From Syntrophobacteraceae bacterium (lineage in GTDB: Bacteria; Desulfobacterota; Syntrophobacteria; Syntrophobacterales; Syntrophobacteraceae): a stretch of 64,000 bases of DNA. Within the stretch, counting starts at the first letter, position 1. Each line of letters begins with the position of its first letter. This document shows positions 24,005 to 27,037 of the stretch, one piece after another. Made by a program: the position numbers and the translations under genes. Under the pieces are notes generated by a model. That model saw only the letters and a program-made list of their open reading frames with translations, did no database searches and had not been told where the DNA came from. Location of the stretch: NCBI GenBank assembly GCA_031292215.1, contig JARLHO010000050.1, positions 1 through 64,000 on the forward strand, written 5' to 3'.

Positions 24005-24148
24005 ACTTTTATAAAACCCCGCAATTCTCAGCGCGGGCCATACTATGATAAACTCCCGTCAGGATGCAATAAAGAGTTTCGCGCGAGTCCTTTCTTAGGT
24101 CTAAAGCCGGGCTGGTCTAAAGCCGGGACGAAGACGAAAGAGAAATAT

Positions 24149-24269
24149 GTTTCACGCGAAGCCGCGAAGTTTCGCGAAGAAGGGGAGAGATTAAAGGGAG
24201 ATAGAAGAGCGAGATCGAATATGTCCGAAGATGCTTTCGGTACTTCTTCTTCGCGGCTTCGCGTGAAAC
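24149..24269. repeat. Inverted repeat with 21-bp perfect arms before glnE
   Basis: GTTTCACGCGAAGCCGCGAAG at 24149-24169 is exactly repeated in reverse complement at 24249-24269. Such Fnu-like TTCGCG(G/T)CTTCGCGTGAAAC repeats are common intergenic elements. The right arm lies inside a duplication of the glnE 5' end. Confidence 0.7.
24193..24245 (+). repeat. Duplicated 5' end of glnE (leader copy)
   Basis: This stretch is a copy, with a few changes, of 24290-24342, which holds the glnE ribosome binding site, start codon and first 14 codons. The copies are 97 bp apart. In the leader copy the start codon ATG reads AAG, so it is not a start. Confidence 0.8.
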
Positions 24270-24301
24270 AGTCTCATGTCTTTGGAATCAAAGGGAGATA
24301 G

Positions 24302-27037
24302 ATGAGCGAAATCGAATACGTCCGAAGGTGCTCTCAGTACTTTGCCATTCTTCTGCGAAACGATCCCGGTATCGAAGAATGGCTGCTTGGCGAGGGAAAC
24401 CTCAAGCGCAGGTATCCTCTTACCGGACTATATTGCGCCCTTGAGGCGGAGGCCGCAAAAGCGACCTCCTATACCGACCTGCTCCGGAGCTTTCGCCGTT
24501 TTAAACAGAAGCACTTTTTACGAATAGGCGCCAGGGATTTTTGCCGTTACGCCGATCTTAGCGAAACCACCGGGCAAATAAGCGACATCGCATCGGTGGC
24601 GCTCCAGGTTGGACTGGTGAGCCTATTGGCCCATCCCGACTGGTGGTCCGGGGAAGAAGATGCCAAGGAACTGGGGTTTTGGGACGGCCATGTCCCGCTG
24701 GTTATTCTGGGCTTGGGGAAACTGGGCGGCCACGAGCTAAATTACGTATCCGACATCGATCTCATTTTCCTTCAATCCGACACCCCTGAGCCAGCCCTCC
24801 TTTTACCGGCGGCGATTTTGCCAGCCGGCAATCCGGCCCCGGCGGCACGCCGGTTGATGAGCCAACTCATCCACAGGCTCTCACGGCTTATGTCCGACCC
24901 CTTTGAGGGCGACCGCGTCTTCCAGGTGGATTTCCGACTGCGCCCGGGCGGCAAAGAAGGCGTGTTGGCGCCGTCGATGAGTGCTGCGATCGAACATTAT
25001 CTTCTCCACGGACGGGCCTGGGAGCGCCAGATGCTTTTAAAATGCCGGCCCGTCGCAGGGGATCGCTCCGAGGGCAACGGCTTTATCCGCGAGGTCCGCC
25101 CCTTTGTGTTCCGCAGGTTTCTCGATTTCCAGGCGTTTGCCGAACTAAAGGAGATGCGAAACCGGGTCCTGGAGGAAGCCGGCCGTTTCCCCCCCGGTCC
25201 ACGATACGACGTAAAGCTTGGCATCGGCGGAATCAGGGAGATCGAGTTTCTCGCCCAGTCCCTGCAACTGGTATACGGCGGGCGAATGGTGGAGCTAGAC
25301 GAACCCAACACCCTGCGCTGCCTCGAAAAGTTATCCACCCTTGGCCTCTTGGCGCAGGATACCGCGGAAGCTCTAAAGGCTTGCTACATTTTCCTTCGAA
25401 ACGTCGAACACCGCGTGCAACTCGATCAGAACCGTCACACCCAACGGTTGCCGGCAAGTGTGGACGCTCGCAAGAGGCTCGCCCTGGCAATGGGGTTTGA
25501 AGAAGACGAAAGAGCGTTTTTAAAGGCGCTCGAAACCAACTGTCATATCGTGCACACGGCGTTTTGCGACCTTTTCGAGGAAAAGTCCGAAGGGACCTAT
25601 GTATCCGCCGGCGTATCCAAATCATTTGCGCTTGACGCCCTAGAGGACTCCCCGGTTTTTGCCGGCGGCGATTCTGCAAGCCGGCAATCTGGCTCCGGCG
25701 CCACGCCGGTTTCCAGGACCATGGAAAGATTTTCGCATATCGGCGACCGGGAGCTTGTGGAAAAGATTTTCGTAAGGCTCGACACCTATTTCGGACGGGT
25801 CGGCCGCAGGACGGGGCTCATGAAGTTGTTTGATTCAAACGGGCCCTGGATTTCTCCTTTCTGCGCGGCGCTTGGAGCAAGCGGGCTTGTGGCCGGGCTT
25901 CTATCTCATAATCCTACGCTTGTCGAAGGCTGCACGGAACCGTTTGAAGCCGCCCCCAAATGGGAAGAATCCGCCGCTTTACTGGTGGATAGAGCCGGGG
26001 ACTACGGAGAAAAACTCGAGTGGATAAGGAAGCTCAAAAACGAGCGGACTATCCAGCTTGCCCTGGCCGACCTCGAAGGCAGGATCGATTTTGCGACCCT
26101 CGAAGAGGAGCTGACCTCCCTTGCCGATTTTGTCATCCGAAATACGCTTGCAGCGGTAAGGGGGCGGCTCGGACTGCCCGAAGGGCTGCACCTCTCGGTC
26201 CTTGGAATGGGAAAGCTTGGCAGCCGGGAGATGAGCTATCTCTCCGATCTCGACCTGGTTTTCGTCTACGCCCCCGAGGCCGACAAACAGGGCCACACAA
26301 TTCCAGTAGACATCGTCCGGCTCATTCAACGGCTGATGAACATGCTCCAGACCCCTCTATCCGAAGGGCCGGGCTACGAGATGGACGTAAGGCTGCGGCC
26401 GACCGGGACTCACGGCCCGCTCGTTGTGACCCGCGACTCCTGGCGCGAGTATTATGGCAAGGCGGATATATGGGAAATACAGGCCCTTTTGAGGGTGCGC
26501 CACATTGCCGGAGAGGATGCGCTGGGGCGCTGGATCGAGGACAGAGCGGCCGAGCTCTGCTTCAAAGGCAGGCCTTCGCAAGCCGTGTGGCCACGCATTT
26601 GTCATCTGCGCGGCCGCATGGAAAAGGAGCGGGCAGCGGAAAAAGGCGGAGAAATCGACCTGAAGCTCGGGATGGGGGGCCTTGCCGACATTGAATTTAT
26701 CGTCCAGGGGGAGCTGCTCGCCGGAGGTTTTGCGAAAACTTCATCCTCCCCGGCCGGCCGTTCGGTCAGGCAAGGAGTTGAGGAGCTCTCAAAAAGTTAC
26801 ACAACGGCAGGGTTAGACAAACTCGCCGCCTTATTTCGCGTGCTCCGCGCCCTTGACCACAGAGTCAGACTGCACACCAACTCGAGTTCGGCAAAACTTG
26901 ACGAAGGTCGATTTAAATCGATGCTATTGCTGGGCCTTTGGCCCCCTCGTGCCGATGGGGACCGGATCGAATCCTGGCAGGACGTACTGGGGTTAAGAAG
27001 AAAGATACGGGCCATCTTTAAACAGTTTTGTCCGTAA
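24302..27037 (+). CDS. glnE: Bifunctional glutamine synthetase adenylyltransferase/adenylyl-removing enzyme
   Basis: GlnE adenylylates glutamine synthetase when nitrogen is plentiful and removes AMP when it is scarce, responding to PII. It has two nucleotidyltransferase domains: the N-terminal adenylyl-removing one with GLGKLGGHELNYVSDIDLIF near residue 138, and the C-terminal adenylyltransferase with GMGKLGSREMSYLSDLDLVF near 636. Each is followed by an RLRP motif and a GlnD-UR_UTase helical part. AAAGGGAGATAG precedes ATG 24302. At 911 residues it is slightly short of the enterobacterial protein. Two copies of one palindromic DNA repeat are embedded in the coding sequence (24806-24855 and 25663-25712). 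Confidence 0.94.
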   Translation: MSEIEYVRRCSQYFAILLRNDPGIEEWLLGEGNLKRRYPLTGLYCALEAEAAKATSYTDLLRSFRRFKQKHFLRIGARDFCRYADLSETTGQISDIASVALQVGLVSLLAHPDWWSGEEDAKELGFWDGHVPLVILGLGKLGGHELNYVSDIDLIFLQSDTPEPALLLPAAILPAGNPAPAARRLMSQLIHRLSRLMSDPFEGDRVFQVDFRLRPGGKEGVLAPSMSAAIEHYLLHGRAWERQMLLKCRPVAGDRSEGNGFIREVRPFVFRRFLDFQAFAELKEMRNRVLEEAGRFPPGPRYDVKLGIGGIREIEFLAQSLQLVYGGRMVELDEPNTLRCLEKLSTLGLLAQDTAEALKACYIFLRNVEHRVQLDQNRHTQRLPASVDARKRLALAMGFEEDERAFLKALETNCHIVHTAFCDLFEEKSEGTYVSAGVSKSFALDALEDSPVFAGGDSASRQSGSGATPVSRTMERFSHIGDRELVEKIFVRLDTYFGRVGRRTGLMKLFDSNGPWISPFCAALGASGLVAGLLSHNPTLVEGCTEPFEAAPKWEESAALLVDRAGDYGEKLEWIRKLKNERTIQLALADLEGRIDFATLEEELTSLADFVIRNTLAAVRGRLGLPEGLHLSVLGMGKLGSREMSYLSDLDLVFVYAPEADKQGHTIPVDIVRLIQRLMNMLQTPLSEGPGYEMDVRLRPTGTHGPLVVTRDSWREYYGKADIWEIQALLRVRHIAGEDALGRWIEDRAAELCFKGRPSQAVWPRICHLRGRMEKERAAEKGGEIDLKLGMGGLADIEFIVQGELLAGGFAKTSSSPAGRSVRQGVEELSKSYTTAGLDKLAALFRVLRALDHRVRLHTNSSSAKLDEGRFKSMLLLGLWPPRADGDRIESWQDVLGLRRKIRAIFKQFCP
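24806..24855 (+). repeat. Palindromic repeat inside glnE, copy 1
   Basis: The 50-base unit starts CCGGCGGCGATTTTGCCAGC and ends GGCACGCCGGTT. It encodes an Ala/Pro-rich insert (PAAILPAGNPAPAARRL) in a loop between the NTase motif and the RLRP motif of the first domain. About nine in ten bases match copy 2. Confidence 0.75.
25663..25712 (+). repeat. Palindromic repeat inside glnE, copy 2
   Basis: The same 50-base unit (CCGGCGGCGATTCTGCAAGC to GCCACGCCGGTT) lies in the linker between the two halves of GlnE. It is read in a different frame from copy 1, giving AGGDSASRQSGSGATPV, yet keeps the gene open. Confidence 0.75.

Follow-up and report, generated by a model that had tools for sequence, protein, structure and literature searches.

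A short repeat inserted in glnE

The glnE gene of a Syntrophobacteraceae bacterium carries two in-frame copies of what we consider, with a probability of about 0.8, to be a clade-specific, non-autonomous, dispersed repeat of ~54 bp composed of two adjacent hairpins. These are the only copies in the window (the whole 64,000-nucleotide stretch of DNA analysed), which derives from a 4.9 Mb genome referred to here as G000. The repeat is dispersed and occurs in frame within genes; transposition is inferred as the means of dispersal. Palindromic repeats that encode protein are known chiefly from the intracellular Rickettsia and Wolbachia, and the element described here provides a clear example from a lineage that is presumably free-living, in which a single genus includes both carriers and closely related non-carriers. 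Comparison within the genus offers a way to follow a repeat as it inserts, as the native loop wears away, and as the site settles into a fixed linker.

The host gene (24302–27037, forward strand) encodes glutamate-ammonia-ligase adenylyltransferase as an intact 911-residue ORF, whose product matches the Pfam families GlnE and GlnD_UR_UTase as well as the E. coli GlnE structures 1v4a and 3k7d. Copy 1 (24802–24855, forward; covariance model score 68.0 bits) is read as PAAILPAGNPAPAARRL and copy 2 (25658–25711, forward; 72.3 bits) as AGGDSASRQSGSGATPV; the element-spanning stretches deduced by translation include PAAILPAGNPAPAAR and AGGDSASR. A sequence-only reading had described two similar segments of ~50 bp at these positions, and their relationship is borne out by 89% identity across 55 bp (24801–24855 against 25657–25711) and a within-window blastn E-value of 3e-16. 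It had also proposed that they are read in two frames without breaking the gene. The core is indeed translated as A-I-L-P in copy 1 and as G-D-S-A in copy 2, the peptides cited for both copies are correct, and both lie within the one continuous ORF.

The insertions fall in a loop or linker, as predicted: site 1 is a loop directly after the NTase motif and strand DIDLIFL, and site 2 is the linker joining the two catalytic halves of GlnE. Two parts of the earlier description need modification. A gain of about 17 residues per copy had been proposed, but only site 1 lengthens the protein, by ~12–16 residues over element-free relatives, and there is no growth at site 2, because ~23 native residues beside the element are missing. 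Each copy consists of two small hairpins rather than a single palindrome. In copy 1, hairpin 1 (24805–24829, forward) has the stem ACCGGC/GCCGGC, with five of six positions paired, and the loop GGCGATTTTGCCA, and is followed by hairpin 2 (24839–24853, forward; CCGGCG-GCA-CGCCGG). The corresponding hairpins of copy 2 are at 25661–25685 (forward; stem GCCGGC/GCCGGC, loop GGCGATTCTGCAA) and 25695–25709 (forward; CCGGCG-CCA-CGCCGG).

A different repeat is present in the glnE leader (24148–24342 of the window), where a 22-nt inverted repeat, CTTCGCGGCTTCGCGTGAAACA, with arms 79 nt apart, is interleaved with two 56-nt direct repeats that are 88% alike and correspond to a duplication of the ribosome-binding and start region of glnE.

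Structure and covariation of the element

Alignment of 12 copies from G000 defines a unit of ~54 bp in which hairpin 1 and hairpin 2 are separated by a 9-nt linker. Hairpin 1 has a variable 6-bp stem enclosing a nearly invariant 13-nt loop, GGCGATTYTGCAA; the stem of hairpin 2 is likewise 6 bp long and closes a loop of 3 nt. The stem of hairpin 1 occurs in many variants (including GCCCGC, GCGCCC, GCCGGC, GCGCCG, GCGCGC, GCCTGC, and GCCGCC), nearly always with the exact complement on the opposite arm. The structure was defined on G000 copies and tested independently on 27 copies from other genomes, in which standard pairs occupy 96.9% of pair cells, compared with 73.9 ± 1.7% in shuffled alignments. 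Changes on both sides of a pair are seen in 63 cells versus 22 in shuffles, and the covariation score is 0.512 versus 0.118, with none of 500 shuffles scoring as high. Sliding the structures by 1–3 columns reduces pairing to 30–49%. An Rfam search with the element returned no family, and the sole match, at 17 bits, is spurious. The combination of a fixed loop with covarying stems lets one ask whether such palindromes are kept by selection or by template-switch repair; paired stem change around a constant loop is compatible with template switching (PMC8794818) and also with selection for binding of the loop by a partner.

Distribution among genomes

A census with covariance model R1 at E<=1e-4, the model E-values being rough, found 19 copies in G000, 15 each in G001 and G005, eight in G003, six in G009, three in G007, and one in G010; four genomes of the same genus (G002, G004, G006, and G008) have none at this threshold. 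All of the genomes whose source is known are MAGs. At E<=0.01, 29 genomes of other genera gave a single weak match at chance level, and a pattern scan of ~85,000 species genomes found strong copies in only four MAGs of this genus (Syntrophobacteraceae bog_1154, WY4.bin13, BP9.bin85, and DX1.bin82), the remaining matches of <=28.7 bits being expected by chance. In a GlnE tree the seven carriers group together and the four non-carriers fall outside; with the census, this indicates that the origin or acquisition of the family lies at the base of the sub-clade. The shared distribution is partly vertical inheritance, and true transpositions are fewer than copies.

The sequence-only reading had suggested searching the genome for the unit and aligning GlnE with relatives. 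The search recovers many further copies, both genic and intergenic, and in the alignment no non-carrier has either segment, and G003, G009, and G010 also lack the site-1 segment. Neither of the two outcomes that the reading had named as refuting it was therefore observed.

Matches of 22–32 bits were left out of the G000 census and mostly correspond to a different, ~140-bp intergenic repeat containing hairpin 2. This repeat is present in some dozens of copies in G000 (L092, L094-L102, and other places), shares the linker and hairpin 2 with the coding element (CCGTC-TGCGGCG-ACA-CGCCGC), and is possibly a parent or sister family.

Coding and non-coding locations

Twelve of the 19 G000 copies are inside conserved genes: eight in uvrA, two in glnE, and one each in cobB and a gene for a beta-lactamase-fold protein. 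The others are intergenic or in leaders (dnaG, carboxypeptidase Taq, glnB-glnD, and C149); those at dnaG and carboxypeptidase Taq are probably 5′ of the start codon and were left out of the coding count. Relatives add further coding hosts, identified by Pfam as a B12-radical SAM protein, an M1 peptidase, an FtsY-like SRP GTPase, and a protein kinase; NarG and several unnamed copy-spanning ORFs were left out of the list of hosts. The element is found at many unrelated loci, singly or in tandem, in both orientations, and both within and between genes. Three nitrogen-control genes (glnB, glnD, and glnE) border or carry it, and the glnB-glnD gap (L210, 1507–1637) contains two full copies together with degenerate ones.

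Coding copies are positioned in loops and interdomain linkers, e.g. between the CbiA and GATase_3 domains of CobB, and five of the six frames are used (GDSAS and AILQA, with LAESP, LQNRP, and CKIAA on the opposite strand). Of 62 copies, 31 (50%) are open in all six frames, compared with 17% of shuffles. The spacing of neighbouring copies is divisible by three in six of six cases in coding arrays and in one of seven in non-coding arrays.

Histories of individual insertions

At glnE site 2, G000, G001, G005, and G007 have the element in a common frame, and remnants are present in G009 and G010. In G003 (L071) ~110 bp splits the hairpin-1 loop with the reading frame kept, and the split element still precedes the native LEKLQETLKAYP; this stretch of ~23 residues is gone at site 2 of G000 and the others. 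Site 1 carries the element in forward orientation in G000 and in reverse orientation (read as LAESP/Q) in G001, G005, and G007, and lacks it in G003, G009, and G010. The difference in orientation implies that a single tolerant loop either received the element twice or underwent an inversion, and the G000 copy looks independent of those in its relatives.

The genus has a fused double UvrA of about 1830–2140 residues (L246 in G000). At site B, between YRRL and RVLEVDH, non-carriers and G003 have a native stretch of 25–26 residues, which is replaced by two copies of the element in G000 and three in G001. Only hairpin 1 is present in G007, and decayed remnants are found in G009 and G010; the frame is GDSA/GDFA in all carriers of the element or a remnant. 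The fusion junction of G000 UvrA contains a 184-residue low-complexity block of element arrays, which G009 lacks almost exactly; relatives have reduced forms of this block and of the site-B elements, or lack them.

A full element is present in cobB of G000; G009 and G010 have related cores that share its frame, and G001 and G007 have no element. In G005, the same CobB interdomain linker (L236) encodes MSHAKSRRREEKSRE from a CGCGAAG-type palindrome resembling that in the glnE leader of the window, i.e. a second repeat family. The copies in the beta-lactamase-fold gene of G000, G001, and G005 share one site and frame, two of them having the stem GCCTGC/GCAGGC and the third GCCCGC/GCGGGC. At glnE site 2, uvrA site B, cobB, and the beta-lactamase-fold gene, related species share both the position and the frame of the insertion, and native residues have been lost at two of these four. 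From these histories, the copies behave like inserts that are passed on by inheritance, duplicate, decay, and take the place of native loops; some insertions are new.

Dispersal and maintenance

The designation of the element as mobile is well supported by its distribution; the analysis revealed no donor enzyme, no duplicated target site, and no recent jump traceable to a single event. The unit ends do not pair with each other as the terminal inverted repeats of a MITE would, and the junctions are too diverged for a target-site duplication to be read. Exact insertion junctions are unreadable because the species are only ~75% identical in GlnE. We suggest that copies spread as DNA, probably by way of a single-stranded hairpin form, with a mobilising enzyme supplied by the host genome. 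Their survival within genes would follow from three properties of the unit: it is short, it is often open in all six frames, and its 54 bp amount to 18 codons. Landing in a flexible loop would add or swap a short Ala/Gly/Pro-rich peptide and leave the protein unbroken, after which adjacent native codons may erode, local copies may duplicate in multiples of three, and the hairpins may decay or become re-paired.

The alternative with the best claim, although we do not favor it, is that the hairpins are kept by replication error, arm-to-arm template switching producing a self-repairing palindrome that is neither a functional RNA nor a product of selection. Changes in the stems are whole C-G/G-C swaps, and pairing remains perfect even in copies with damaged loops (e.g. 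L107 site 1); the G010 cobB core, GGCGATTTTGC-AGGG-GCAAAATCGGCC, contains an inverted copy of part of the loop, as expected of a template switch, a process documented for hairpins generally (PMC8794818; PMC6649704). By itself, however, template switching explains neither the near-invariance of GGCGATTYTGCAA across loci nor arrival at unrelated loci, and orthologous copies mostly retain one stem (as at glnE site 2). A more tentative proposal is that the element may be a self-renewing coding palindrome with a fixed 13-nt loop and stems rewritten pairwise by template switching or conversion, such that hairpins persist within genes across species and the element-encoded peptide replaces the host loop, with its frame set by the landing.

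It is unlikely that the element belongs to the REP superfamily (CGTC or GTAG type) and is moved by a RAYT/Y1 transposase. Like REPs, it consists of small GC-rich palindromes that are both tandem and dispersed and sometimes intragenic, notably in uvrA (PMC3733652); CGTC or TGTC is found 5′ of hairpin 2 in some copies, the intergenic family with the same hairpin 2 has CGTC, and G000 has eight Y1_Tnp matches. However, the tag (CGTC, TGTC/CCTC) is at the stem end in only three of 47 ungapped copies, stem and loop lengths do not fit the CGTC families, and the consensus lacks the terminal GTAG tag, GTAG being close to only a few copies (e.g. L211, L213, and the uvrA flanks). Near the Y1 genes of G000 there is no copy of the hairpin-1 loop with up to one mismatch allowed. 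Y1/HUH transposase genes do not track the element, as they are present in carriers and also in three of the four non-carriers; in view of this lack of association, a RAYT/Y1 mobiliser is not favoured.

Less probable still is that the element is an RNA or DNA binding site under selection, with its loop bound by a protein or RNase and a regulatory role in leaders and 3′ regions, the coding copies being a by-product. Invariance of the loop while the stem covaries is consistent with this, as are the copies in the dnaG and carboxypeptidase leaders and between glnB and glnD. Third-position identity in the glnE site-2 element is 83% for G000 against G001 and G005, on 18 codons only, compared with 63% (G001) and 55% (G005) for the whole gene. 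Against it, the regulatory context is not conserved, Rfam has no matching family, 12 of the 19 G000 copies are in coding regions, and several orthologs (G007, G009, and G010) decay freely. Convergence of GC-rich low-complexity linkers, prompted by their Ala/Gly/Pro-rich composition, is refuted to near certainty by 89% DNA identity in different frames and on both strands, the 54-bp unit with its covarying stems, and the non-coding copies.

Comparison with known repeats

The dispersed two-hairpin repeat is of a kind already known from RPE, WPE, and intragenic REPs; in the part of the literature covered, we came across no publication describing such repeats in Syntrophobacteraceae. Di Nocera et al. 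list intragenic GTAG and CGTC REPs, and uvrA is doubly hit by these in Opitutus terrae and Thioalkalivibrio (PMC3733652); that uvrA is hit again here is a coincidence of interest. The CGTC-tagged REPs, which include R. conorii RPE-4 and RPE-6, are likewise small GC-rich palindromes with intragenic copies, and a minority of element copies have CGTC/TGTC before hairpin 2. They have stems of 8–9 bp starting with A/T pairs and loops of 4–5 nt (PMC3733652), whereas hairpin 2 of the element has a GC stem of ~6 bp and a 3-nt loop and comes after another hairpin, whose 13-nt loop barely varies. The RAYT-mobilised GTAG REPs and REPINs are also short dispersed hairpins, sometimes paired and sometimes intragenic (uvrA included), but they carry a GTAG tag that the element consensus lacks, and no association of the element with a RAYT was found. 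In nematomorph mitochondria palindromes are similarly maintained inside coding sequence, with template switching proposed (PMC6649704), but these are long perfect repeats rather than a dispersed family with a common core.

The likeness to RPE drawn in the sequence-only reading holds for behaviour, i.e. in-frame insertion in several frames with loops tolerated, but not for family membership. Rickettsia RPE and Wolbachia WPE are dispersed palindromic repeats found in frame in conserved genes and between genes and tolerated by the protein (PMC2229807), and the element is likewise dispersed and tolerated in frame in glnE, uvrA, cobB, and the beta-lactamase-fold gene. However, RPE are single long stem-loops of 105–146 bp (PMC2229807) restricted to Rickettsia, which are reported to lose repeat identity with time (PMC6649704), whereas the element is 54 bp with two short hairpins, is found in Syntrophobacteraceae-like MAGs, and has stems that stay paired through double changes. 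It is not an RPE, and is set apart by size, architecture, and host.
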